64,000 nucleotides of DNA from assembly GCF_000612545.2 (NCBI RefSeq), contig NZ_CP097800.1, forward strand, positions 6,373,501-6,437,500. The letters are read 5' to 3'. Position numbers and translations under genes: made by a program. This stretch comes from Streptomyces sp. PCS3-D2. Its GTDB lineage: Bacteria; Actinomycetota; Actinomycetes; Streptomycetales; Streptomycetaceae. Below, piece by piece: positions 1,887-46,661 of this stretch; position 1 is the first letter of the stretch; each line of letters opens with the position of its first letter. The notes under the pieces are model-generated. The model was not told where the DNA came from. It worked only from the letters and a program-made list of their open reading frames with translations, and ran no database searches.

Positions 1887-2014
1887 GTCGCGCCACTACT
1901 TGTCCTGGTTCGCGCCGGGGCGCCCCCGGAGTCACCCTCTGTGAGCCAGGCCACATCGCATCCCCCGCATGGCGGGCGATCGGTCGTGGCAAACTGGCTG
2001 GAGTACCAGTAGCA

Positions 2015-2140
2015 GCGCACTCCGGGGTCGGTGTAATTCCGAACCGGCGGTATAGTCCGCGACCCGTCCGCAGCCAGCGGCCGGTTGACCAGGTGAAATT
2101 CCTGGACCGACGGTTAAAGTCCGGATGGGAGGCAGTGCGC
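2015..2140 (+). promoter_or_regulatory. FMN riboswitch (RFN element)
   Basis: A complete RFN aptamer lies in the leader of the riboflavin operon. The closing stem P1 is GCGCAC (2015-2020) pairing with GTGCGC (2135-2140). Inside are the hallmark conserved pieces TCGGGG/GGGGTCGGTGTAATTCC near 2024, the GGCGGTATAGTCC arm near 2045, CAGGTGAAATTCCTG near 2090-2104, and GGTTAAAGTCCGGATGGGAG near 2112. These match the family consensus closely. Binding of FMN is expected to reduce expression of ribD and the downstream genes. The variable P3-like arm (about 2063-2087) is GC-rich, as usual in actinomycetes. Confidence 0.96.
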
Positions 2141-2180
2141 GGCGGGCCAGTCACCGGTACGCCGCCGTCGGCGGTTCATC

Positions 2181-2202
2181 GGCACATCCCCCCGGATGTG
2201 CC
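2181..2202 (+). terminator. Hairpin in riboswitch expression platform (possible attenuator)
   Basis: A perfect 9-bp stem (GGCACATCC pairing with GGATGTGCC) with a CCCC loop sits 40 nt after the aptamer and about 110 nt before ribD. No T-tract follows, which is common for actinomycete terminators, so it may stop transcription when FMN is bound or act only as a structural spacer. The function is inferred from position; no clear anti-terminator pairing was worked out. Confidence 0.45.
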
Positions 2203-2310
2203 CGGTAGAGCCGTTGTTCCGGCCTCGGCGTCCCCGTGTGGGCTGTTCCGCTCCATCTGTCGTATCCCGACAGGCCCCGGAGTCCGTGCCCGATGAGGCA
2301 GGAGGACCCG

Positions 2311-3429
2311 GTGGCGACACACGCCGCGCACGCAGCGCCCGCACCCGACGCGGGTACCCGTGCCATGCGACGGGCCATCGCACTCGCCGCCCGCGGACTC
2401 GGCTCCACCAGCCCCAACCCGGTCGTCGGCTGCGTCATCACCGATGCCCGCGGCGCCGTCGTCGGCGAGGGCTGGCACCAGCGGGCCGGCGGCCCGCACG
2501 CCGAGGTCCACGCCCTGCGCGCCGCAGGTGCCGCCGCCCGCGGCGGCACGGCCTACGTCACCCTCGAACCCTGCAACCACACGGGCCGCACCGGCCCCTG
2601 CGCGCAGGCCCTCGCCGACGCCGGCGTTGCCCGCGTGGTCTACGCAGTCCCCGACCCGAACCCGCAGGCCAGCGGCGGTGCGGCCACCCTGCGCGCCGCC
2701 GGGATCGACGCCGAGGCCGGACTGCTGCGGGCCGAGGCGGAGGCCGGCAACACCGCCTGGCTGACCTCCGTACGCCTCGGCCGCCCCCACGTGACCTGGA
2801 AGTACGCCGCCACCCTCGACGGCCGCAGCGCCGCCGCCGACGGCAGCAGCCGCTGGATCAGCTCCGCAGAGTCCCGCGCCGACGTCCACCGGCTGCGCGC
2901 CCAGGTCGATGCCGTCCTGGTCGGCGGCGGCACCCTGCGCGCCGACGACCCGCACCTCGCCGTCCGCGGCGTCGACGGTGCCACCCAGCCCCTGCGCGTG
3001 GCCCTCGACACCCGCGCCGCCCTCCGGCCCACCGCCCGCGTCCTCGACGCCGCCGCACCCACCCTGCTGGTCGTCGCCGACGATGCCGACACCCGCCACC
3101 TGCCCGGCGTCGACCTGCTCCGGCTGCCCCCGCGCGACGGCCGCATCCCGCTCGACCGACTCCTGGCCGAGCTGTACGCCCGCGGCGTGCGCTCCCTGCT
3201 CCTGGAAGGCGGACCCACCCTCGCGGGCGCCTTCCTCGAAGCCGGGGCCGTCGACCGCGTCGTCGGCTACCTCGCCCCCGCCCTGCTCGGCGCCGGCCCC
3301 GCCGCCCTCGGCGACGCCGGCATCACGAACATCACCCACGCCCTGCGCCTCGACATCACCGAGGTCGTCCGGGTGGGCCCCGACCTGCGCATCACCGCCC
3401 TTCCCGCCACCGCCCCCAAGGAGCACTGA
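2311..3429 (+). CDS. ribD: Bifunctional diaminohydroxyphosphoribosylaminopyrimidine deaminase / reductase
   Basis: Carries out the second and third steps of riboflavin synthesis: deamination of the pyrimidine made from GTP, then NADPH-dependent reduction of the ribose side chain. The 372-residue protein has an N-terminal cytidine-deaminase-type zinc domain with HAE (about residue 63) and PCNHTGRTGPC (about 87-97), followed by a DHFR-like reductase domain that begins near TWKYAATLDGR and contains SLLLEGGPTLAGAF. I chose GTG at 2311 because AGGAGG (2300-2305) sits 5 nt upstream. An ATG at 2293 and upstream in-frame codons lack such a site. It is first in the operon behind the FMN riboswitch, and its stop abuts the next start directly. 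Confidence 0.96.
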   Translation: MATHAAHAAPAPDAGTRAMRRAIALAARGLGSTSPNPVVGCVITDARGAVVGEGWHQRAGGPHAEVHALRAAGAAARGGTAYVTLEPCNHTGRTGPCAQALADAGVARVVYAVPDPNPQASGGAATLRAAGIDAEAGLLRAEAEAGNTAWLTSVRLGRPHVTWKYAATLDGRSAAADGSSRWISSAESRADVHRLRAQVDAVLVGGGTLRADDPHLAVRGVDGATQPLRVALDTRAALRPTARVLDAAAPTLLVVADDADTRHLPGVDLLRLPPRDGRIPLDRLLAELYARGVRSLLLEGGPTLAGAFLEAGAVDRVVGYLAPALLGAGPAALGDAGITNITHALRLDITEVVRVGPDLRITALPATAPKEH

Positions 3430-4059
3430 GTGTTCACCGGAATCGTCGAAGAACTGGGCGAGGTCACCGCCGTCGAGCCGCTCCGGGAAGCCTCCCGCTT
3501 CCGGCTGCGCGGCCCCCTCGTCACCCAGGACGCCAAACACGGCGACTCCATCGCCGTCAACGGCGTCTGCCTCACCGTCGTGGAGACCGCCGACGGCGAG
3601 TTCACCGCCGACGTCATGCAGGAGACCCTCAACCGCTCCAGCCTCGGCGCCCTGACCGCGGGCTCCCGGGTCAACCTGGAGCGCCCGATGGCCCTCGGCG
3701 GACGGCTCGGCGGCCACCTGGTCCAGGGCCACGTCGACGGCACGGGTGAGATCCTTTCGCGCACCCCCTCCGAGCACTGGGAGATCGTCAAGGTCGCCCT
3801 CCCGGAGCACCTCTCCCGCTACGTCGTCGAGAAGGGCTCCATCACCGTCGACGGCGTCAGCCTCACCGTCGTCGAGGCCGCAGCCGACTGGTTCACCATC
3901 AGCCTCATCCCCACCACCCTCGCGCTGACCACCCTCGGCATCAAGCAGCCCGGCGACCCGGTCAACCTGGAGGTCGACGTCCTCGCCAAGTACGTCGAGC
4001 GCCTGCTGGCCGCCGGCGTCGACCCGCTGCGCGCCGACCCGGCGGGAGACTCCCGGTGA
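3430..4059 (+). CDS. ribE: Riboflavin synthase, alpha subunit
   Basis: Dismutates two molecules of 6,7-dimethyl-8-ribityllumazine to riboflavin and the pyrimidine precursor, the last step of the pathway. The 209-residue protein has the family's internal duplication. The first barrel starts [10 protein letters not shown] and contains [13 protein letters not shown]; the second contains HVDGTGEI and [14 protein letters not shown]. The GTG start at 3430 follows the ribD stop with no gap, so translation is probably coupled. Length is typical. Gene naming differs between species (ribE in Bacillus, ribC in E. coli); ribE is used here in the Bacillus sense. Confidence 0.96.
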
Positions 4060-13434: not shown

Positions 13435-14070
13435 TCAGGCCCGGGGGAGTCCGTCACCTTCAGTGACGGAAGCGGGGTTTCCCGCCGTCGCTCCGGTCTC
13501 GCAAGACCACTCGTATCCCGTACCACTCTGGCGTACCAAGGTCTGGGCGAAGGGGCGCGAAGGATCACTGGAGAAGTGCGCGCGCTCCGCGCGCTCCCAC
13601 CCGTCCCAGAAGTCGGACAGTTCACGCCCGTCCCGGGCGCGGCCCCGCAGCCACGACTGCGCGCGCGGGGTCTCCATCCACAGCAGCCGTGCCAGGTGCG
13701 GGCGCAGCGCCCGCCGCCCGGCCCCGACCCCCTCCATCAGGAGCACCGGCGCCGGCTCCAGCACCCGTTCCGGTCCGAGGCGGCGCTCCGCCCAGTCGTA
13801 CGGGGCCCAGTGGGCCGGCCGGCCGGCGGCGAGGGGCTCCAGCACCCGGGAGCGCAGCCGCTCCTCCCAACCGAAGAGCTCCTCGTGGCTCGCCACGTCG
13901 TCCAGGTGCAGCACGGGGGCCCCGCCCAGGGCTGCGGCGAGCCGCCCCGCGAAGGTGCTCTTCCCGGACCCGGCGTGCCCGTCGATCCCGATCAGGCGCA
14001 CCGGGCCGAGGGAACGCGGCAGGTCGGCGAGCTCCCTCGCGAGTGACTCAAGTGACTGGTGCGGTTCCAC
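13435..14070 (-). CDS. Uridine kinase-like P-loop protein
   Basis: A 211-residue P-loop kinase of the uridine kinase/phosphoribulokinase superfamily. Walker A is GIDGHAGSGKSTFAG near residues 25-36. The region VLHLDDVASHEELFGWEERL supplies the substrate-contact Asp seen in uridine kinases, and VLLMEGVGAGRRAL gives the acidic strand. GTG at 14070 is chosen as start because MEPHQSLESLARELADLP begins where homology to the fold starts; only a weak GGTCGGG precedes it. Conserved in Streptomyces and usually annotated uridine kinase, but the true substrate is not established. It ends upstream of a strong terminator. Confidence 0.75.
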   Translation of the reverse strand: MEPHQSLESLARELADLPRSLGPVRLIGIDGHAGSGKSTFAGRLAAALGGAPVLHLDDVASHEELFGWEERLRSRVLEPLAAGRPAHWAPYDWAERRLGPERVLEPAPVLLMEGVGAGRRALRPHLARLLWMETPRAQSWLRGRARDGRELSDFWDGWERAERAHFSSDPSRPFAQTLVRQSGTGYEWSCETGATAGNPASVTEGDGLPRA

Positions 14071-14179
14071 CCGACCAGCGTAGACAAGCCCGACACGAGC
14101 TGTGGCTTGGGCCTCGGGCCGCCGGGAACCTGGAAGGGTGACACCACCCAAGCGCCGACCCACCCCGGGGGACCACGCG

Positions 14180-15544
14180 ATGACCGCACCCACGCCACGC
14201 AGGGCCGTACTCGTCGCCGCGCTGGCGGTCGCCACCGCGGCCACCGCCGCCGTGCCCGGGGGCGGCGCCCCGGCGGTCGCCGCACCCGCCCCGCGCGCCG
14301 AGGGCCGCACCGTCGACAACCGCTTCTGGTACTCCTACGGCCACTGGCGGGCGGGCACCCACCAGGGCACCGCGGCCTTCACCGGCACCCGCCCCGGTCT
14401 GGAGATCCGGACCGCCGTCGGCCGCACCGAGTACGCCGACCCGCACACCGGACGCCGGAGCACCTGGGAGTACGCCACCTGGACCTCCCCCGTGCACACC
14501 TCCACGGTTCCCGCCACCGAGGCCGTCGCTTCCTGGAACGCCCGCACCCCCGCCGGCACCTGGATCCAGGTCGAGCTGCGCGCCACCTACACCGACGGTG
14601 CCACCGGCCCCTGGTACGTGATGGGCCGCTGGGCCTCCGGCGACGCGGACATCCGGCGCACCTCGGTGGACGGCCAGACCGACGGCCGGTCCACCGTCTG
14701 GACCGACACCCTGGCCGTCGACGCCCCGGCCGCGGCCGGGGGCCTGCGCATCGCCGGCTGGCAGCTGCGCCTGACCCTCCACCGCCGGCCCGGCGCCGCC
14801 GAGGGCCCGACGGTGTGGCTGGCCGGCGCGATGGTCTCCGCCGTCCCCGACCGGTTCACCGTCCCGGCCTCCCGCCCCTCCGGAACCGCCCACGAGCTGA
14901 AGGTGCCGCGCTATTCGCAGCAGACCCACACCGGCCGCTATCCCGAGTACGACAACGGCGGCGAGGCCTGGTGCAGCCCCACCTCCTCCCAGATGGTCAT
15001 CGAGCACTTCGGCCGCAGGGCCGATCCCGCCGCCCTGGCCTGGGTGAACCCCGCCTACTCGGACCCGCAGGTTTGTCACGCCGCCCGTTCCACCTACGAC
15101 GCCGCTTACCGGGGCTGCGGGAACTGGTCCTTCAACGCCGCCTACGCCGCCACCTACAGCGGCCTCGCCGGGGTCGTGACCCGCCTCGGCTCGCTGGCCG
15201 ACCTGGAGACCGTGGTGCGGGCCGGAATCCCCGCCATCGCCTCTACGTCCTTCCGCGCGGACGAGCTCACCGGCGCCGGCTACGGGACGGCCGGCCACCT
15301 GATGACCGTCATCGGATTCACGGCGGTCGGGGACGTGATCGCCAACGATCCCCATGCTCCCGACAACCCGTCCGTCCGCCGGGTCTACCGACGCGCCGAG
15401 TGGGAGAAGGTCTGGCTGCGCACCAAGCGCACGACCGCCGGGGGCAAGACCGCCTCCGGAAGCGGCGGGGTCTGCTACCTCTACGCCCCCGCGCTGCCGT
15501 CCCCGGCGCAGGTCCTGGCCCTGCGGGCGGTCGGCGTGCTGTGA
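14180..15544 (+). CDS. Secreted C39-like cysteine peptidase family protein
   Basis: A 454-residue exported protein: a signal peptide over about residues 1-35 (RRAVLVAALAVATAATAAV), a beta-rich N-terminal domain (about 40-235), and a C-terminal peptidase_C39-like domain (about 240-430). The likely catalytic Cys lies in GGEAWCSPTSSQMV, the His in TAGHLMTVIGF and the Asp/Asn in VIANDPHAPDN. ATG 14180 follows GGGGGACC. C39-family domains cleave peptides, often leader peptides at double-Gly sites, but no transporter domain is present here, so an extracellular protease role is more likely. It is divergently transcribed from the kinase gene. Confidence 0.8.
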   Translation: MTAPTPRRAVLVAALAVATAATAAVPGGGAPAVAAPAPRAEGRTVDNRFWYSYGHWRAGTHQGTAAFTGTRPGLEIRTAVGRTEYADPHTGRRSTWEYATWTSPVHTSTVPATEAVASWNARTPAGTWIQVELRATYTDGATGPWYVMGRWASGDADIRRTSVDGQTDGRSTVWTDTLAVDAPAAAGGLRIAGWQLRLTLHRRPGAAEGPTVWLAGAMVSAVPDRFTVPASRPSGTAHELKVPRYSQQTHTGRYPEYDNGGEAWCSPTSSQMVIEHFGRRADPAALAWVNPAYSDPQVCHAARSTYDAAYRGCGNWSFNAAYAATYSGLAGVVTRLGSLADLETVVRAGIPAIASTSFRADELTGAGYGTAGHLMTVIGFTAVGDVIANDPHAPDNPSVRRVYRRAEWEKVWLRTKRTTAGGKTASGSGGVCYLYAPALPSPAQVLALRAVGVL

Positions 15545-15559
15545 CGGCGGTACGGCGGT

Positions 15560-15606
15560 GGAGGGAGCAGGGGAGCAGGGGAGCAGGGAGCGGGGGAGCG
15601 GGGGAG
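15560..15606 (+). repeat. Short purine-rich tandem repeat
   Basis: Five to six degenerate copies of an 8-bp unit (GGGGAGCA/GGGGGAGC) lie directly after the peptidase stop and before the SPW gene. It is a simple repeat, probably slippage-prone, with no coding potential of its own. Confidence 0.7.
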
Positions 15607-15699
15607 AACGCTGAAATTACCCGTTGACCAGGCAGCCCCTAGAAGCGGAACATAATGGAGTAAATGGCACATAAAGGCTTCTCGTAGGAGGCGGCCGCC

Positions 15700-16131
15700 A
15701 TGACCACCCATCCCAGCATCGAGCACCACCCCGACCTCGCCGAGATGCGCACCCGGTTCGAGCGGGTGACCAGCACCCCCCGCGCGCAGGCCGTCGAGGC
15801 ACTGGCCCTGATCACGGGCCTGTACCTGGCCGCCTCGCCGTGGATCGCGGGATTCGGCATCCTGATCCCGCTGGCGATCAACAACCTGATCGTCGGCCTC
15901 GCGTTCTGCCTGTGCATGGGCGGCCTGGGATCCGCCTACGAGCGCACCCATGCGATGGCGTGGACGGCGGTCGTTCTCGGCGCCTGGACGATCATCGCTC
16001 CGTGGGCCATCGCCGGTGAGATGGACACGACGCGCACGGTGGTCAACAACGTGATCACCGGAGCCGTCGCCCTCTGCCTCGGCCTCGCGATGGCGGCCAT
16101 GGCCGGCCGCAGCCGGGACACCAGGGTCTAA
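15700..16131 (+). CDS. SPW repeat membrane protein
   Basis: A 143-residue membrane protein with four hydrophobic segments and two copies of the SPW-type motif at the ends of helices (AASPWIAGF near 45-53 and IIAPWAIAG near 98-106). SPW proteins are a known family of unknown function in actinomycetes and other soil bacteria. ATG 15700 has TAGGAGG 7-8 nt upstream. A promoter is likely between 15624 (TTGACC) and 15656 (CATAAT), although the spacing of 21 nt is long. It stands alone between the peptidase and a small membrane protein gene. Confidence 0.88.
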   Translation: MTTHPSIEHHPDLAEMRTRFERVTSTPRAQAVEALALITGLYLAASPWIAGFGILIPLAINNLIVGLAFCLCMGGLGSAYERTHAMAWTAVVLGAWTIIAPWAIAGEMDTTRTVVNNVITGAVALCLGLAMAAMAGRSRDTRV

Positions 16132-33965: not shown

Positions 33966-35363
33966 ATGTTCGAACCAGTCATAGCGCCGAGCGGTACCCT
34001 GCTCGGCCTCCTCCAGCGGGGCCGTGGCGACGGCACGCTGCACGCACTCGCGGCGCCCAGGGCGGAAGCCCTCCAGGCCCTCAACCAGTGCGTGCTCGGC
34101 GATCCGCGCCAGGACTGGCAGGTCGAGAACCGCTCGCTGTACTACGCCAGGCTCTACCTGGATCTCGACGGCCCCCTCGGCGAGATCGAGGGCCACCTCT
34201 TCAGCGCCGACGACCTCGTCGACGACACGGACCACCGCACGGGCCTCGCCCTGTCCGTCCTGGGCCACCTGGCCTCGTACGGCCGCGACGACGCACTGAT
34301 GCTGCTGCGCCGCTACGCCGCGTCCGGGGCCAACTGGGCGTGGGCCCTCGACGAGCTCGCCCTGCGCGACGACGACGAAGGGCTGCGGTCCCTGGCCGCA
34401 CCCGTCCTCGCCCGCTTCCCCGTCACGGCCGAGGGCGAGGCGCGGCTGGCCGCCGCCGTCCGTGACGCCTACGAGCCCCGGCCGTGGTGTCTGTGGGAGG
34501 AGTCCCCGCAGTACGGGGAGCGCTTGGGCGCGGCCCGCCGGCAGGGCTCCTTCGACCGCTGGCAGCGCCAGCTCACCCCGAACGGCCCCCAGCCGGGCTG
34601 GGGCGTTCAGGCCGTCTTCGACTGGGCCGCCGACGGCCTGCGCCGCGGCAACCCGCTGCACGTGCCCGCCGCCCGCTGCCTGGCCGCCGTGGCCCAGCCC
34701 GAGGACCGCTCCGCGATCCTCGCGGCCGCCGCCGGCGCCGACGGCGAGGCCGCCCGGGCCACCGCCCTGCACCACCTGGTCCTCGCCGAACCCGACAATC
34801 CGGCCGTACTGGACCTCATCGAAGCGGCGGCCGACGAGCCCGCCGTGGCCGCGTACGAGCGCATGTGCGGCCCCGCGGCCGTCGAACGGGCCCGGCGCTG
34901 GGTCCACCGGCCCGACGCCCTCGGCGAGGCCGCCGCGGCCCTCCTGGCCGCCCGGGGCGGCGCCGAGGACGCCCCCCTGGTCCTGAGCGCACTGCGCTCC
35001 ACCGTCCGCGGCTCGGGCCCCGACACCCGGCGGCTGTTCGCCCTGGTGGACGGCGCGGGCCGGCTCGCCGTCAACTGCGCCGCCCCCGTACTGCGCCACA
35101 TCTACCGCGAGACGTCCTCGTCCCACCTGCGGGGCCGCGCCGCGCGGGCCCTGGCCAGCACCGACCCCTCCTTCGCGGCGGGCTTCGCCGTCGAGTGCCT
35201 CTGGGACTGCGAGGAGACCACCCGCGAGGTCGCCGCCCGCCACGCCGAGACCGCCGACGCCCGGGTGGCCCCCCGCCTGCGCCGCCTGGCGGCGGACCCG
35301 GCGGAGGAGGAGGACGTGCAGTCCGCCGTGCGCAGCCGCATCACCCCGGAGTCGGCCGTGTAG
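33966..35363 (+). CDS. HEAT-repeat domain protein
   Basis: A 465-residue helical protein with many Ala/Arg-rich helix pairs that look like HEAT/ARM repeats, especially in the C-terminal half (e.g. HLRGRAARALASTDPSFAAGF, CEETTREVAARHAET). The N-terminal region contains RSLYYARLYLDLDG and LFSADDLVDDTDHRTGLAL. No enzyme motif. Such proteins act as scaffolds. Conserved in Streptomyces near smeA/sffA, so a developmental link is possible but unproven. ATG 33966 lacks a strong ribosome-binding site; translation may depend on the small ORF upstream. Confidence 0.75.
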   Translation: MFEPVIAPSGTLLGLLQRGRGDGTLHALAAPRAEALQALNQCVLGDPRQDWQVENRSLYYARLYLDLDGPLGEIEGHLFSADDLVDDTDHRTGLALSVLGHLASYGRDDALMLLRRYAASGANWAWALDELALRDDDEGLRSLAAPVLARFPVTAEGEARLAAAVRDAYEPRPWCLWEESPQYGERLGAARRQGSFDRWQRQLTPNGPQPGWGVQAVFDWAADGLRRGNPLHVPAARCLAAVAQPEDRSAILAAAAGADGEAARATALHHLVLAEPDNPAVLDLIEAAADEPAVAAYERMCGPAAVERARRWVHRPDALGEAAAALLAARGGAEDAPLVLSALRSTVRGSGPDTRRLFALVDGAGRLAVNCAAPVLRHIYRETSSSHLRGRAARALASTDPSFAAGFAVECLWDCEETTREVAARHAETADARVAPRLRRLAADPAEEEDVQSAVRSRITPESAV

Positions 35364-39145: not shown

Positions 39146-39182
39146 TTGGGATGTTGTCAGCAACAGGACCTAGTCTTTGTCC
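39146..39182 (+). promoter_or_regulatory. Promoter for a leaderless transcript of the condensin-like operon
   Basis: A TAGTCT -10 box (39171-39176) stands only 6 nt before GTG 39183. TTGGGA (39146-39151) is a possible -35 at 19 nt. Transcription would begin at or near the GTG, giving a leaderless mRNA, and no ribosome-binding site is present. A short inverted repeat GTTG-TCAG-CAAC (39153-39164) falls between the boxes and could be an operator. Confidence 0.5.
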
Positions 39183-40685
39183 GTGACTCTCCCCGCCCCG
39201 GCGAAGACCCTTCCCTCCCCGGCGCCGGGCCCGGCCGCCGACGAGGGCCTGGCCCGGCGGCTGCGCGCGCTCGCCTGCACCGCCCCGCTCCACGACCTCG
39301 ACGTACGCAAGGCCAATCTGGCGGGCGAGTACGGCATCTACGCCATGGCGGAGGTCGCGCTCGCCGCGATCGACCTGGTCACCCTCAACATGGACTTCGA
39401 CACCGGCGCCGACCACGAGCAGATAGTGGCCAGGCTGCTGCCGCGCGTCGCGGCCCAGGCGCCGGCCCGCCCGACGGCCGAGCACGAGCGGGTGGCCCGC
39501 TGGGTGCTGGAGAACCTGATCAACGTCGGCAGTGTGGACCGGGGCTTCCGTGCGATCTACGGCACCTTCGGCCCCGACGGCGTCTACGTGCGCCGCGACT
39601 ACGACTTCAAGCTGATCGAAGAGGTCCCCTACGGCGGCGCGGTCTACCTGCGCACCACCGACGAGGCCGTCAACGTCCTGGTCGGGGCCCTCGACACCGA
39701 TGTCACCAGCGCCCAGATCGCCGCCGAGGTCAAGCTGGAGGTGCTGATCAGCCGCGGGCGGCTGGCGGATGCCCAACTGGCCGCCGAGCAGGCCCGCTAC
39801 CGGACCGTGCAGTACGCCGAGACCCTGCGCCGGACCCTGGACGCGACCCGGCGCAACGTCCGGGCGGTGGACTGGCTCCAGGCCGTCCCGGACATGATCG
39901 CCGAGGCGCTGGAGCACGTCGCCGACCGCTACCGCCACGAGAACGCGATCCTCACGAACATCCGCAGGGCGCGCGACGAGGCCGAGGAGCCGGAGAACAA
40001 GCGCCGCGCGGCCGAGCTCGTCGACATCGTCAAGGACTGCATCCGCCGCCACACCCAGCTGCAGTCCCGGCTGCTGGACGCCGGCCCGCTGTTCCGCGCC
40101 GAGCAGGACCGCCAGGCCTTCGCCGCCCCGGCGGCGCGCACCGGCATCGACCTGTACGGGCAGCTCGTCGCCCCGCTCCTGCCGCTGCCCGTGGAGCAGG
40201 CGCGCCGGGTCACCGACGCCTTCTTCGCCGCCGGGGCGGGGCTGCGCACGCCCGTCTCGGTGCGGGTCGCCGACCTCGTCGAGATCCTGCTCACCCCGCC
40301 GGTGGAACGCGAACACCTCGGCGCGGAGATGCCGGAGCCGGACCTGATCGCCACCCCGGACGACAGCCGCTTCAGCGAGGAGCAGCTCGCCGCCGCGATG
40401 CGGCTCCTGGACCTGCCGCACGACGCCCCGCGCCGGCTGTCCGGACTCCTCGCGGAGGCCCGCCGCAGCGATAGCGAACTGCCCTACCTGGTGGCCCTGC
40501 TGGCCGTGCACGCCGCGAGCCCGGCCGTGGGCACCGCGTACCGCCAGGGCGAGGAGCGGCTGCTCTTCGCCGTGGACGACGGCACCCAGCTCGACGACCC
40601 CGAGTTCGGCGGCGCCGACCTCATCGTCGGCACCGCTCTCCTCGACGCCGCCGGCATGGCCGCCGACCGTGCGGAGGCGTCGTGA
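39183..40685 (+). CDS. Putative kleisin-like (MukF/MksF/JetA-like) subunit of condensin-like operon
   Basis: A 500-residue soluble protein with no enzymatic motif. The N-terminal third (about 20-200) contains winged-helix-like segments (DVRKANLAGEYGIYAMAEVA; RRDYDFKLIEEVPYGGAVYLRTTDEAVNVL), the centre is helical and probably coiled coil (VKLEVLISRGRLADAQLAAEQARYRTVQ... KRRAAELVDIVK), and the C-terminal part again folds (DLVEILLTPPVEREHLGAE). That order, and its place first in an operon with a small protein and a giant SMC ATPase, matches MukF/MksF/JetA. Direct homology to DUF3375 cannot be judged by eye. GTG 39183 is chosen from the leaderless promoter; TTG 39177 is an alternative. Confidence 0.6.
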   Translation: MTLPAPAKTLPSPAPGPAADEGLARRLRALACTAPLHDLDVRKANLAGEYGIYAMAEVALAAIDLVTLNMDFDTGADHEQIVARLLPRVAAQAPARPTAEHERVARWVLENLINVGSVDRGFRAIYGTFGPDGVYVRRDYDFKLIEEVPYGGAVYLRTTDEAVNVLVGALDTDVTSAQIAAEVKLEVLISRGRLADAQLAAEQARYRTVQYAETLRRTLDATRRNVRAVDWLQAVPDMIAEALEHVADRYRHENAILTNIRRARDEAEEPENKRRAAELVDIVKDCIRRHTQLQSRLLDAGPLFRAEQDRQAFAAPAARTGIDLYGQLVAPLLPLPVEQARRVTDAFFAAGAGLRTPVSVRVADLVEILLTPPVEREHLGAEMPEPDLIATPDDSRFSEEQLAAAMRLLDLPHDAPRRLSGLLAEARRSDSELPYLVALLAVHAASPAVGTAYRQGEERLLFAVDDGTQLDDPEFGGADLIVGTALLDAAGMAADRAEAS

Positions 40686-41005
40686 GCCGCCCTGTCCCGG
40701 CGCCGGCCGGACGGGTGGCGGCAGTCGCCGCGCCCGCACCGGAGCCGGTCCCGCCGGGGCCCACACCCGTCCCGCCGGACCTGGCGGCGCGGGCGCCGAG
40801 GCGCAGCGGCCCCGGGAAACCCGGCCCCGCCCGGCACCGATTCCTGCCCGGCCCCGGCCCCGGCCCCGGCTGCCGCCGGGCGGTGTCCGCGGCCCACGCT
40901 CCGGCGGGGCCGAACGCGCCGGAGCCGCCCGCCGCGCACAGCGGACCCGCCGACCGCCCCCGTACGCCCCGTACCACCCGCACCGCCGAGGAGACGCACC
41001 CGTGA
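40682..41005 (+). CDS. Pro/Arg-rich low-complexity ORF between condensin-like genes
   Basis: A 107-residue frame that starts GTGA over the previous stop and ends overlapping the next start in the same manner, so translation would pass through all three genes. Composition is Pro/Ala/Arg/Gly-rich with a PGPGPGPG run and no fold-like pattern. It may be a real disordered linker protein, or a coding-looking spacer that preserves coupling. The underlying DNA contains GGCCCC repeats near 40853-40870. Confidence 0.35.
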   Translation: MSRPVPAPAGRVAAVAAPAPEPVPPGPTPVPPDLAARAPRRSGPGKPGPARHRFLPGPGPGPGCRRAVSAAHAPAGPNAPEPPAAHSGPADRPRTPRTTRTAEETHP

Positions 41006-41904
41006 GCGACCACCACGCCGAGCACCCCGCGTGGAGCGAGCCCGACACGTCGTCGGCTCCCGTCGCGCCCGCCGCCGGAGGGTCGGTGACCCCGGCGGAC
41101 GCCGCCGACGCGGCCCGGCTCGTCGCCTTCGGGCTCCAGCCCAAGCTGGCCCCCGCCCGTGACGCCGAGTACGCCGAACTGCTCCGCCGCTACCGTGAGG
41201 AACCCGCCTTCGGCCGCCTCGCCGACGCCGTCGCGACCGGCCTCGGCCTCGTCGTGCTGGAGGTGTCCCCGCGCGCCGGAATGGCCGTGGCCGCCGACGA
41301 GGAATCCGTCTTCGCCGTCCGCATGGGCGACTACGCCCGCCGCACCGCGGCAGACTCCGCCGACCGGTTCCTGCACGGCCTCGCCCACCTCGCCGTCGCC
41401 GCCCTCGCCTTCCCGCGCCCCGAGGACCTCGCCGACGACGGATACATCGGCCGCGTCACCGTCAACGGCGTCGACGCCTTCGTCCGGCAGACCTGCCGCC
41501 GTCTGGAGGAGCGCGCCGAGGAGCTCGGTGAGAACACCGACCCGGCCTCCGACGCCCCGGGGCTGGAGGCCGCCTGGCGCGTCTACGCCCGCCGCAGCGC
41601 GACCGGTGCCACCAAGGACGCCCGCCGCCTCGCCGGGTCCACCACGGGCATCGTCGGCAAGGCCGCCGCCTTCCTCACCGACTCCGGCTTCCTCCAGCGC
41701 ACCGGGGACGAGGCCGGCGGCACCTACCGCACCACCCCCCGCTACCAGCTCCAGGTCCGCGACATGGCGGGCAGCTCGGCCATGGCCGAGCTCCTGGAAC
41801 TCGGCGTGGTCCCCGTCAGCGACGGCTCCGCCACCCTCCTGCCGGCGCCCGAGGGCGACGACCTGGAGCTGGCCGCCGACGCCGGGCTGCCCTTCCACGC
41901 CTGA
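41002..41904 (+). CDS. Putative MukE/MksE/JetB-like subunit of condensin-like operon
   Basis: A 300-residue soluble protein. After an acidic, disordered N terminus (about 1-40) come segments typical of winged-helix proteins: LLRRYREEPAFGRLADAVATGLGLVVLEV, FLHGLAHLAVAALAFPRPEDL, VDAFVRQTCRRLEERAEELG and IVGKAAAFLTDSGFLQRTGDEAGGTYRTTPRYQLQ. The last is a good match to a DNA-binding wing. Size and place between kleisin-like and SMC genes suggest a MukE/JetB role. No catalytic motif. GTG 41002 overlaps the preceding stop; 53 nt separate it from the SMC gene. Confidence 0.58.
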   Translation: MSDHHAEHPAWSEPDTSSAPVAPAAGGSVTPADAADAARLVAFGLQPKLAPARDAEYAELLRRYREEPAFGRLADAVATGLGLVVLEVSPRAGMAVAADEESVFAVRMGDYARRTAADSADRFLHGLAHLAVAALAFPRPEDLADDGYIGRVTVNGVDAFVRQTCRRLEERAEELGENTDPASDAPGLEAAWRVYARRSATGATKDARRLAGSTTGIVGKAAAFLTDSGFLQRTGDEAGGTYRTTPRYQLQVRDMAGSSAMAELLELGVVPVSDGSATLLPAPEGDDLELAADAGLPFHA

Positions 41905-41957
41905 GTCCCGACTCCCCCAGACCCTCCCTCACCCAGACACCACGAGAGTCCGCCGCC

Positions 41958-44900
41958 ATGTACGAGCTGTCCCGGATCCGCCTCTACTCCATCGGGCCCG
42001 CCGGCGCACGCTACGCCGACACCGTGCTCGACCTGCGCGGAGTCGGCGAGCCGGTGCCCCACCCGGCGCCGACCCAGGCGGAGTTCTTCGAGGAGGAGCC
42101 CACCGGGCCGCCGCGCCGCCCCGCGCCCGCCGGAGTGCTCTTCCTGGAGAACGGCGGCGGCAAGTCCGTCCTCCTCAAGCTGATCTTCTCGGTGATGCTC
42201 CCGGGCCACCGCAACACCCTGGGCGGCGCCAGTTCCGGCGTGCTGCGCAAGTTCCTGCTCGCCGACGACTGCGGCCACGTGGCCCTGGAGTGGCAGCACA
42301 CCCAGACCGGTGAATGCGTGGTCGTCGGCAAGGTCAGTGAATGGCGCGGCCGCCAGGTCTCGGGCGACCCCCGCAAGTTCGCCGAGGCCTGGTACTCCTT
42401 CCGCCCCGGCCCCGGCCTGAGCCTGGACAGCCTGCCCGTCGCCGAGTCCACCGCCGTGCGCCCGCCCGCCGAGGGGGCCTCCGGCGCGCAGGGGCGCCGC
42501 CGCACCATGAAGGGCTTCCGAGACGCCCTCACCGAGGCGGGCAAGGCCTACCCGCACCTGGAGGTCTGCTTCGAGGAGATCCACGACCGTTGGAACGAGC
42601 ACCTCACCGAACTCGGCCTCGACCCCGAACTCTTCCGCTACCAGCGCGAGATGAACGCCGACGAAGGTGAGGCGGCCGGCCTCTTCGCGGTCAAGAAGGA
42701 CTCCGACTTCACCGACCTGCTGCTGCGCGCCGTCACCGACACGCGCGACACGGACGGCCTCGCCGATCTCGTCCACGGCTTCGGCAACAAGCTCGGCCGG
42801 CGGGCCGAGCTCATGGCCGAACGCGACTTCACCGCCGGCTCGGTGGACCTGCTCACCAAGATCGTCGAAGCCGGCGCCACCCGCTCCCGACTGCGCGATG
42901 TCCACGCCGGCGCCGAGCGCCGCACGCGCACCCTCGCCCGCCGGCTGTCCGCCCGCGCCGCCGAGGAGCGCGGCCGGGCCGCCGACCTCGCCCAGCGCGT
43001 CACCGCCGCAGCCCACGACGTCACCGCAGCCGAGTCGGCCCGCGCCCGCAGCGCGGCCGTCTCCGCCGAACTCGCCTACCGGCACGCCTCCCTGGCCCTG
43101 ACCGTCGCCGACAAGGCCGCCGCCGCGCAGCGCCGCGAACTCCTCGAAGCCCGCACCCTGTACTCCGCCTGGCAGGCCGCCGAGACCGTGCTGCGCCACC
43201 GCGCCGCCGCCGACCGCTCCGCCCGTGTCGCCGCCGCGATCCGGGAGGCGGAGCGGGACGCGGCCCCGGCCCTGGCCGCACGTGCCACGGCCGCGGGTGA
43301 GCTCGTACGGGCCCTGCACAGCGCCGCGGAGGAGGGCGAGCGGCTCGCCAACGAAGAGGAGGAGCGTTCCGCCGCCCTCCAGGCCACCGGTGAGGCCTCC
43401 CACCGCGACGCCACCGCCGCCGCCACGGCCGCCCAGCGGGCCCGGAGCGAGGCCGAGCACCTCCGGGCCAGGCTCAGCGAGGTGCAGCAGGAGACCGCCG
43501 AAGCCGTCCGGGCCGGCTGGCTCGACGACTCCGCCCCCGACGCCGACCCGGCCCGCGCCGCCCTGGCCGCCGCCGACGCCGAGAAGGCCGCCGTGGCCGC
43601 CTGGGACGAGTCGCGCGAGGCCGCCCGGGCCGCTGCCGAAGCCGCCCGTGAGGCCGCGGCCGCGGAATCTCGGGCCGAGCTGACCGCCGCCCGGGCCGCG
43701 GACGCCGCCGAGGCAGCCGAGGCCGCCCACGACGCAGAGCACCGCGCCGCCGCCTCCCTCGCCGCATCGCCCCGCCTCGCGGAGCTCCTCGGACTGCCCT
43801 CGGACGTGGGCGCCCCGGACGTTCCGTTCCCCTCTCCCCGCACCGGCGACGACCCCTCGGGCCGGTCCGCCGCGGGCCCCGGCGAAGCCCGGCGCACCGG
43901 CCGCGCGGCGCCGGTCACCGCCGCGGACCTGCTCACCGCCGAGGACCTCGACCGGGGCGCCGACGCCCTGCGCGAACTCCTGGCCGACAGCGTCGCCTCC
44001 GCCGAGCGCCAGCTGTTCGAGCTGCGCACCGCGGCCGCCGACGACGCCCGCATCCTCGGGGCGCTCGGCGACGGGGGGCTGCTGCCGCCCGGCCCGGACG
44101 TCCTCGCCACCGTCGAGTACCTCGGCGAGCACGGCATCCCCGCACTTCCCGGCTGGCGCTACCTCGCCCAGGCCGTGGACCCCGCCGACCACGCGGCCGT
44201 CCTCGCGGCCCGTCCGGAGCTCGTCGACGGTGTCGTCATCACCGACCCCGACACCCATGGCCGGGCCCGCGAGGTCCTCTCCGGCGCCGCCCTGCTGCCC
44301 CGTTCCACCGTGGCCGTCGGCACGGCCGCGGCCCTGCTCGCCCCCGTGCCCCAGGCCGGCCCGGACGACGCCGTCTCCGGCATCTTCATCGTCACGCCGA
44401 ACCCGGCCATGCACGACGAGAACGCCGCCGACGAGGAGCGCCAAGCCCTGCGCACCCGAGCCGGTGCCCGCGACACCGAGATCCGCGACCTCGCCGCCCG
44501 CCTCGCCGGTGACCGCGAGCTGTCCGCCCGGCTCGCCTCCTGGCGCGCCGGCTGCCCGGCCGGCCGCCTCACCGAGCTCGCCGAACAGGCCGCCGCCGCC
44601 CGTATGTTCGCCGAGGAGACCGACAGCGAGCTCGCGGAGGCCCGTACGGTGCGCGCCGAGGCCGACGAGGCCGCCGCCGACGCGGCCCGTGTCCGGGAGG
44701 AGCGCCAGGACACCGCCCAGCGCGCCCGCCGCGCCGCAGACGCCCTCGCGGGCCTCGCCTTCCGCCTGCGCGAGCGCGCGGGCTGGCAGGCCCGCGTGCG
44801 CGAACTCGCCGACGAGGCCGCCGAGTCCGAGGCCCGTGCCGAGGCCTGCCTGGACCGGGCCCGCGCCGCCGACGAGGACCGCCGCGCGGCGCAGCGCGCC

Positions 44901-46661
44901 GCCGACGACGCCCGCCGCACGGCCCGGGCCCTGCGCGCCGAGCGCGCCGAGATCGCCGGCGCCCCCGACCGGCTGCCGGAGGCCGACGACGGCCCGCGCG
45001 CCCCGCTGCCCGACCTGCGCGAGGCCTACCGCGCCGCGTCCCGGCTCTACGAGAAGGTCGGCGTCGGCGCCGACCTGCGCGCCGAACAGGCCCGCGCCGA
45101 GAGCGACGAGAGCGCCGCCCTCGCCGAACTCGACCGCCTCACCAACAAGGTCCGCACCCGTGCCGCCCAGCTCCTGGAGGGCACCGACGGCGCCGACGGC
45201 CCGTCCCGCCAGGCCGCGGCCGCCCGCGCCGAGTCGCTCGTACAGATGCTGGAGACCCGGGCGTCGGCCGCCAGCGAGCAGCTCGGCCGGCTGCGCGGCG
45301 AGGCCGAACGGCACGCTCCCGCCGAAGGCGAGGCGCACACCGACCTGCCCGAGGAACTGGTCCCCGGGGACGTCGACCAGGCGCAGGCCCTGCTGCGCAC
45401 GGCCACCGCCCAGCTCGCCGCCCACTCCGCGGCCGTCGAGGGAGCCCGCGCCGCCCACGCCGACCTGCTGCGCGCCCACCGCACCGCCGAGGACGGCGCC
45501 GGTGGCTTCGACGAGACCGCGGCCCTGCTGCGGGACCTGCTGCGCGACCACACCCACCAGGACGACGAGCAGGAACCGGTGGCCCACCCCGGCACACTGG
45601 AGGAGGCCCGCCAGTCGGCCACCGAGGCCCGCCGCTCCCTACGGGGCTGCGCTGCCGACCTGTCGGCGGCCGAGTCCGCGGTGCGCGAGGCGAGCGACAT
45701 CCTGGTCCGGCACGCCAACGCCACCCGCTACGAGCAGGTACGCACCCCCGCGCGCCAGCAGATCCGCGAACTGCCCGCCTCCGCCCTGCCCGAGCACGCG
45801 GCGGCCTGGGCGGCGGCCTTCGCCCCCCGGCTGCGCGTCCTCACCGACGAGCTGGCGCAGCTGGAGCGCAACCGTGAAAGCATCGTCGACCGGCTGCGCG
45901 GCCTGGTCGAATCCGCCTTGGCCACCCTCCGGTCCGCGCAGCGGCTCTCCCAGCTCCCCGAAGGCCTCGGGGAATGGTCCGGACAGGAGTTCCTGCGGAT
46001 CCGCTTCGAGGAGCCCGACCAGGCCACCCTCACGGAGCGGCTCGGCGAGGTCATCGACGAGGCGACCCGCACGGCCGTGAAGAAGAACAGCAGTGCCTCC
46101 TTCGGCGAGGGCCGCCGCGACGGCATGTCCCTGCTGCTGAGGGGTGTGCAGGCGGCCCTCGAACCCAAGGGCATCTGTGTGGAGATCCTCAAGCCGGACG
46201 CGGTGCTGCGCGCCGAGCGGGTGCCGGTGGGGCAGATGGGCGACGTGTTCTCCGGCGGGCAGTTGCTGACCGCCGCGATCGCCCTGTACTGCACGATGGC
46301 GGCGCTGCGCAGCAACGACCGGGGCCGCGACAAGCACCGGCACGCGGGCACGCTGTTCCTCGACAACCCGATCGGGCGTGCCAACGCCACCTACCTGCTG
46401 GAGCTCCAGCGGGCCGTGTCCGACGCGCTCGGCGTGCAGCTGCTCTACACCACCGGACTGTTCGACACGACAGCCCTGGCCGAGTTCCCGCTGGTGATCC
46501 GCCTGCGCAATGACGCGGACCTGCGGGCGGGCCTGAAGTACATCAGTGTCGAGGAGCACCTGCGCCCGGGCCTGCCGCAGCAGTCCCCGGAGGGGGAGAC
46601 CATCCACGGCGAGATCACGGCCACCCGCATGTTCCGCCGCGGCGCCGCGCAGACCGCCTGA
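41958..46661 (+). CDS. Giant SMC/MukB-like coiled-coil ATPase (1567 aa)
   Basis: A head-to-tail SMC-type ATPase. Walker A is FLENGGGKSVLLKL near residues 63-75. Two long coiled-coil arms (about 330-640 and 830-1370) rich in Ala, Arg and Glu follow. A globular hinge-like part (about 690-825) contains LGDGGLLPPGPDVLATVEYL, GIPALPGWRYLAQAV and VSGIFIVTPNP. The C-terminal lobe holds the ABC signature FSGGQ (about 1431-1435) and Walker B GTLFLDNP (about 1464-1471), where Asn occupies the usual catalytic Glu position. It resembles MukB/MksB/JetC in length and layout. ATG 41958 has a poor ribosome-binding site. No nuclease gene (JetD/MksG) follows. Confidence 0.85.
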   Translation: MYELSRIRLYSIGPAGARYADTVLDLRGVGEPVPHPAPTQAEFFEEEPTGPPRRPAPAGVLFLENGGGKSVLLKLIFSVMLPGHRNTLGGASSGVLRKFLLADDCGHVALEWQHTQTGECVVVGKVSEWRGRQVSGDPRKFAEAWYSFRPGPGLSLDSLPVAESTAVRPPAEGASGAQGRRRTMKGFRDALTEAGKAYPHLEVCFEEIHDRWNEHLTELGLDPELFRYQREMNADEGEAAGLFAVKKDSDFTDLLLRAVTDTRDTDGLADLVHGFGNKLGRRAELMAERDFTAGSVDLLTKIVEAGATRSRLRDVHAGAERRTRTLARRLSARAAEERGRAADLAQRVTAAAHDVTAAESARARSAAVSAELAYRHASLALTVADKAAAAQRRELLEARTLYSAWQAAETVLRHRAAADRSARVAAAIREAERDAAPALAARATAAGELVRALHSAAEEGERLANEEEERSAALQATGEASHRDATAAATAAQRARSEAEHLRARLSEVQQETAEAVRAGWLDDSAPDADPARAALAAADAEKAAVAAWDESREAARAAAEAAREAAAAESRAELTAARAADAAEAAEAAHDAEHRAAASLAASPRLAELLGLPSDVGAPDVPFPSPRTGDDPSGRSAAGPGEARRTGRAAPVTAADLLTAEDLDRGADALRELLADSVASAERQLFELRTAAADDARILGALGDGGLLPPGPDVLATVEYLGEHGIPALPGWRYLAQAVDPADHAAVLAARPELVDGVVITDPDTHGRAREVLSGAALLPRSTVAVGTAAALLAPVPQAGPDDAVSGIFIVTPNPAMHDENAADEERQALRTRAGARDTEIRDLAARLAGDRELSARLASWRAGCPAGRLTELAEQAAAARMFAEETDSELAEARTVRAEADEAAADAARVREERQDTAQRARRAADALAGLAFRLRERAGWQARVRELADEAAESEARAEACLDRARAADEDRRAAQRAADDARRTARALRAERAEIAGAPDRLPEADDGPRAPLPDLREAYRAASRLYEKVGVGADLRAEQARAESDESAALAELDRLTNKVRTRAAQLLEGTDGADGPSRQAAAARAESLVQMLETRASAASEQLGRLRGEAERHAPAEGEAHTDLPEELVPGDVDQAQALLRTATAQLAAHSAAVEGARAAHADLLRAHRTAEDGAGGFDETAALLRDLLRDHTHQDDEQEPVAHPGTLEEARQSATEARRSLRGCAADLSAAESAVREASDILVRHANATRYEQVRTPARQQIRELPASALPEHAAAWAAAFAPRLRVLTDELAQLERNRESIVDRLRGLVESALATLRSAQRLSQLPEGLGEWSGQEFLRIRFEEPDQATLTERLGEVIDEATRTAVKKNSSASFGEGRRDGMSLLLRGVQAALEPKGICVEILKPDAVLRAERVPVGQMGDVFSGGQLLTAAIALYCTMAALRSNDRGRDKHRHAGTLFLDNPIGRANATYLLELQRAVSDALGVQLLYTTGLFDTTALAEFPLVIRLRNDADLRAGLKYISVEEHLRPGLPQQSPEGETIHGEITATRMFRRGAAQTA

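Follow-up and report, generated by a model that had tools for sequence, protein, structure and literature searches.

The 64,000-nt window of Streptomyces sp. PCS3-D2 DNA analyzed here contains an operon in which jetA, a short proline-rich open reading frame (ORF), jetB and jetC follow one another (Table 1). By the family identity of JetA and JetC, the operon is a Wadjet of type III, a system in which JetABC is the ATP-driven structural maintenance of chromosomes (SMC) motor and JetD the cutter (excerpt of PMC10586767). The type III nuclease JetD3 is absent from the locus. We consider it moderately probable that JetABC represents a domesticated, nuclease-free SMC loop extruder acting on the host chromosome, a function that we infer, and that it was derived from a type III Wadjet by a single loss of JetD.

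JetA and JetC match the type III models of PADLOC, the JetC matches falling in two strong stretches, of which the larger spans residues 655–1564. Since, in addition, 240 of 246 Streptomyces genomes have a JetA match, the operon is real and a chance arrangement is excluded. JetB matched no library model, those for JetB3 included. Its relatives (31–53% identity) occupy the same position in JetD-bearing operons, and one of these, the JetB of locus L031, itself scores weakly against the JetB3 models. The top Foldseek match of the JetB fold model is the JetB of Pseudomonas aeruginosa PA14 (8dk1_E; E 2.4e-3, probability 1.00), and MukF chains lead the matches of the JetA AlphaFold model in two programs, with non-significant E-values. 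The kleisin, KITE and SMC roles, in line with the first-pass annotation, follow from the JetA3/JetC3 family, and the fold models back them without significant E-values. That annotation had likened the genes to MukFEB, MksFEB and JetABC together. The JetABC layout was borne out, but an assignment to MukFEB or to Mks (type I) was not: the sequence family is that of type III Wadjet, Pfam and NCBIfam searches of the four operon proteins gave no significant match, and the DUF3375 model (PF11855), proposed as a check, found nothing in this genome while the control, C. glutamicum, was positive. Sequence searches of the PDB with the operon proteins returned no convincing match. A grouping of the ATPase with RecN/SbcC-type proteins, which had been named as evidence against the proposal, was not seen either; its JetC3 matches are strong, and it has no significant match in Pfam or NCBIfam.

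The Walker A, signature and Walker B motifs of JetC are intact. Walker B (LDNPIG) has an Asn in place of the Glu typical of these ATPases. An inactivating change was considered here, and dropped because eight of the ten JetD-bearing JetC3 rows carry the same Asn.

Three JetD queries detected no JetD gene adjacent to the operon in 80 named Streptomyces loci (some stop at contig ends; the JetC C-terminus is visible in 69), which agrees with the initial observation that no nuclease gene flanks the operon. None was found in eight loci of other Streptomycetaceae genera (L156–L163), nor in five loci with jetABC (L144–L148) from a family, f20, that we take to be the Frankiaceae; a sixth f20 locus, L149, is incomplete. 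Searches of the PCS3-D2 genome with PDLC00594 and PF09983 gave no match. Because PF09983, at the cutoff applied, failed to detect the JetD3 of L031, its negative result was backed with PDLC00594 and PF09664, and the searches were repeated genus-wide. PF09664 has a single match in this genome, a JetD2 that belongs to a complete Wadjet of type II. This second system comprises JetA2, JetB2, JetC2 and JetD2 with DUF2399 (L167, 9735–18497; G000:C1, about 1.73 Mb), and lies about 4.7 Mb from the type III operon.

In a JetA tree of 39 rows, for which 13 of the 80 named Streptomyces loci were taken in addition to the window, 22 Streptomycetaceae and five f20 rows constitute one JetD-less clade (96/95), and the JetD-bearing rows, including the most distant ones, fall outside it. 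The tree of JetC heads, computed from 32 of 38 rows because the other six were too incomplete, recovers this split, though weakly (74/66; 76% of bootstraps). The trees were built without L034 (a JetA match alone) and L149. Two further loci, L150 and L033, end before any JetD and were labelled unknown; both group among the JetD-bearing rows. Because the JetD-less rows form one JetA clade, with which the JetC heads weakly agree, a single loss of JetD is the simplest reading, and the trees suggest that vertical inheritance followed. The loss would be placed in an ancestor of the Streptomycetaceae and f20 operons, after which the remaining JetABC would have been retained as a resident SMC complex.

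Across the 246 Streptomyces genomes, PDLC00594 matched in 34 (19 at E < 1e-40), PF09664 in 104 and PF09983 in 29, with a union of 117; 127 of the 240 jetA-bearing genomes match none of these three JetD models. A second JetA match accompanies strong JetD3 matches in 17 of 19 genomes, versus 4 of 227 others, a count for which at most six candidate places per genome were scored and in which a second match may be a fragment. Judged from this co-occurrence, true JetD3 genes in Streptomyces track separate second copies of the operon. In two such copies, the jetA-B-C-D3 operons of L031 and L032, jetD3 is followed by a tetratricopeptide repeat (TPR) gene (13796–15769 and 1900–3765, respectively; 621–657 aa), which has weak NB-ARC/STAND (NTPase) matches in L031. 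The TPR gene is possibly a fifth component of accessory type III Wadjets.

These counts bear on the question, raised in the first-pass annotation, of whether the operon is a condensin or a defence core with an unlinked effector. In the latter case JetABC would sense small circular DNA and recruit a nuclease encoded elsewhere, either the type II JetD of the genome or one of another family. Such a role would suit the type III identity of JetA and JetC and the presence of a complete type II Wadjet in the same genome. It would also suit the near-constancy of JetA and JetB relative to JetD-bearing relatives at group-specific positions: a scan for residues separating JetD-less from JetD-bearing proteins gave one position each in JetA and JetB, and hence no clear lost interface. 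We nevertheless regard an unlinked-nuclease defence as unlikely. Those 127 genomes have no match to any of the three JetD families, JetD3 tracks second JetA matches, and JetD2 belongs to its own jetABC2 operon. A shared neighbour that might be a hidden effector was not found among the 25 largest neighbour-gene clusters, of which only jetA, jetB and jetC are common to all three locus groups (62 Streptomyces, seven other-genus and five f20 loci). A chromosomal SMC complex is favored because the operon is family-core and because so many jetA-bearing genomes lack any of the three JetD families.

The core status of the operon is apparent from its distribution. The JetA match has a best E ≤ 3.2e-172 in 239 Streptomyces genomes; the exception, G145 (best E 6.2e-69), may lack an orthologue. 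Of the genomes with no match, four are drafts of 790–1770 contigs (G074, G097, G176 and G222), G192 (120 contigs) is 6% contaminated, and G103 reaches a completeness of 78%. In a sample of Streptomycetaceae, JetA is matched at ≥75% identity in 119 of 121 genomes, which represent 16 of 17 genera; G333 has no match and G278 one of 27% at most. A class-wide sample yielded matches in 43 of 296 genomes, namely 28 Streptomyces and 15 of f20, a family that carries a sister operon, likewise without JetD, and in which 19 of 35 genomes match. Two of 15 genomes from other families of the same order have distant matches (33% and 44%). No match was found in 50,697 phage records, and the five in 72,556 plasmid records are all below 60% identity. 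A single IMG/VR contig is matched at 89%, at its extreme end (bases 52–1485 of 30,935), which is probably host flank. The G+C content at third codon positions (GC3) of jetC is 0.94, which is host-like.

Selection on the operon was estimated as the ratio of nonsynonymous to synonymous substitution rates (dN/dS; Nei–Gojobori, pairs with dS 0.2–1.5, relatedness uncorrected). Among the named Streptomyces loci, the median pairwise values are 0.11 for jetA (80 loci), 0.17 for jetB (76), and 0.105 (75) and 0.059 (69) for the jetC heads, against 0.22 for pxpA, 0.25 for pxpC and 0.48 for the conservon kinase. Purifying selection on the jet genes is, therefore, stronger than on the neighbouring pxp genes. 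This, the near-universal JetA and the host-like GC3 of jetC argue that the operon is not a mobile defence system; the patchy, horizontally acquired distribution of a typical Wadjet was not observed.

Near-universal presence and strong purifying selection, unlike the patchy distribution of typical defence genes, also make a nuclease-free control of plasmids or conjugation distinctly unlikely. Here, the complex would loop, compact or sequester incoming plasmid DNA without cutting it, a role of possible use in Streptomyces, which pass double-stranded plasmids from hypha to hypha. Circular DNA is thought to be recognized by Wadjet through loop extrusion (excerpt of PMC10586767), which would be in line with such a role. 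That the operon has no current function and has been decaying since JetD was lost is highly improbable, for although one subunit is gone and jetA and jetB are split across frames in G280, dN/dS is 0.06–0.17, jetA, jetB and the jetC heads align without stop codons in 69–80 loci, the motifs are intact and the spacer frame is kept. The G280 locus (L163, 5369–12617, in a single-contig genome) also has a shortened jetC frame, and its disruption may represent decay or an assembly error.

Two features of the operon were unexpected. The first is the end of JetB, which consists of an acidic stretch and the sequence AGLPFH in 82 of 84 Streptomycetaceae proteins. AGLPFH is absent from all five f20 and all ten JetD-bearing JetB proteins. 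Of the two exceptions in the family, L088 keeps AGLPF and the end of L090 looks frameshifted. Residues 275–300 of the JetB model have a pLDDT below 50. Because a conserved tail is carried on a variable linker, it looks like a docking peptide for a putative partner.

The second feature is the ORF that bridges jetA and jetB. The first-pass annotation had offered no interpretation of it. It was at first viewed as spurious, having no tblastn match in 80 loci, a view that was dropped since its frame and overlaps are kept while its sequence varies. In 66 of 76 Streptomyces loci, the ORF opens in an NTGA that overlaps the jetA stop and closes in a second one that overlaps a potential jetB start. The first jetB codon in the alignment lies 38 to 1929 nt from jetA, and the coupled spacers are 2 mod 3 long in 67 of 74 loci, window included; the same holds for 47 of 54 distinct lengths, a count that meets relatedness in part (binomial p 4e-16). 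The bridging frame is stop-free in 66 of the 74 spacers versus 52 and 53 in the other frames, and in 33 versus 28 and 30 of the 41 spacers of at least 150 nt (shuffled mean 17.3, maximum 25). The weak contrast in these longer spacers indicates that the composition and order of the bases account for much of the lack of stops, whereas the frame rule is not explained in this way. The bridge ORF is hypervariable in sequence but frame-conserved, and would keep translation running from jetA into jetB. It looks derived in Streptomyces, because jetB itself is in frame with the NTGA start in most loci of the other groups (7/10 JetD-bearing operons, 5/5 f20 loci and 4/7 other-genus loci). In nine loci the ORF encodes a recognizable Pro-rich tail (median dN/dS 0.56 over ten rows, of which L052 is a poor match), and a protein function of the product is possible there. 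A Pro-rich tail is shared by L071, L083, L084, L103, L111 and L114, with motifs resembling VPTVRAVRLT and AVTPVPLPLPRP.

By analogy with the family, JetC dimers would assemble with the kleisin JetA and the KITE protein JetB into a MukBEF-like, ATP-driven loop extruder that leaves DNA uncut. Its substrate would most plausibly be the host chromosome, on which it would represent a second motor beside SMC–ScpAB, and the putative partner would bind the JetB tail. Both complexes belong to the SMC–kleisin–KITE machine class, with chromosome organization as the role proposed here, but SMC–ScpAB is a separate family. SMC is the condensin discussed for the Streptomyces chromosome (excerpt of PMC13121528). 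With MukBEF the operon shares a KITE subunit, a dedicated SMC and the leading MukF fold matches of JetA (non-significant E); it differs in gene family, as JetA, JetB and JetC have no significant Pfam match. A parallel case is MksBEF of P. aeruginosa, also a nuclease-less JetABC-type complex in a genome that has SMC (excerpt of PMC7485682). Because the parent of the present operon is type III in sequence and DUF3375 is absent from the genome, the nuclease was probably lost independently, in what looks like a second, separate occurrence of an MksBEF-like loss, this time from type III. Relative to type III Wadjet (JetABCD3), gene order and the LDNPIG and FSGGQ motifs are as in most JetD-bearing relatives, whereas the missing JetD3, the family-core status with host-like GC3, the AGLPFH tail and the bridge ORF are different. 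Wadjet systems occur in 42% of Actinobacteria and, in Streptomyces, lie towards the chromosome ends (excerpt of PMC10482375).

The fuller proposal, to which we give even chances, is that the operon encodes a second family-core condensin of Streptomyces and its relatives, derived from type III Wadjet by a nuclease loss independent of MksBEF. On this view, JetB would have gained a Streptomycetaceae-specific docking peptide (acidic stretch plus AGLPFH) that binds a new partner, and the hypervariable bridge gene, acquired and translated in Streptomyces, would couple production of the kleisin to that of the KITE subunit. If correct, a second SMC motor in almost every species would alter how the folding of the linear Streptomyces chromosome is interpreted, and an immune machine that destroys DNA would be seen to have turned to housekeeping for a second time, here from another Wadjet type. 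Some genomes carry both the core JetABC and an accessory JetABCD, which makes the proposed path from defence to chromosome organization directly testable. No prior description of the operon was found in the literature searched, which left out most subscription papers and all preprints, so that an earlier account is possible; the bridge ORF and the JetB tail are new details.

Table 1. Features of the type III jet operon (window positions).
Feature	Position	Strand	Basis
jetA (type III), kleisin subunit, 500 aa, GTG start	39183..40685	+	PADLOC JetA3 PDLC00567, E 4.3e-184; AlphaFold model led by MukF chains, non-significant E
Pro-rich bridge ORF, 107 codons	40682..41005	+	frame and both NTGA overlaps kept in 66/76 Streptomyces loci
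jetB (type III), KITE/MukE-like double winged-helix subunit, 300 aa	41002..41904	+	51% identity to JetB of JetD-bearing L031/L032; Foldseek top match JetB 8dk1_E
JetB C-terminal tail, AGLPFH codons	41881..41898	+	82/84 Streptomycetaceae JetB; codon pattern unique in the genome
jetC (type III), SMC ATPase, 1567 aa	41958..46661	+	PADLOC JetC3 PDLC00588, E 0, 1383 bits
JetC Walker A, NGGGKS	42150..42167	+	read from sequence/translation
JetC ABC signature, FSGGQ	46248..46262	+	also in 9/10 JetD-bearing JetC3 rows; L165 has FSGGE
JetC Walker B, TLFLDNPIG	46350..46376	+	LDNPIG in 8/10 JetD-bearing JetC3 rows; L035 has LDNPFG; L165 does not match the motif pattern

The order and sizes of the four ORFs are as first described. 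Their translational linkage holds for the first three genes, which are joined by 4-nt GTGA overlaps (40682–40685 and 41002–41005), but not for jetC, which starts 53 nt past the jetB stop without an overlap. For jetA, the GTG at 39183 is preferred over the TTG at 39177 because a TAGTCT/TAATCT box recurs a few bases 5' of GTGACT in many upstream stretches (34 loci sought, several incomplete or out of register; judged by eye, without a statistic). Domain matches identify the neighbours, as had been stated, as pxpABC (CT_A_B, CT_C_D and LamB_YcsF) and a conservon (NIT with HATPase, DUF742 and an ATP-binding protein). A 465-aa protein without a Pfam match at E 1e-5 is encoded at 33966–35363; because its gene is found close to the operon in 46 of 62 Streptomyces and four of seven other-genus loci, the locus is partly syntenic across genera.

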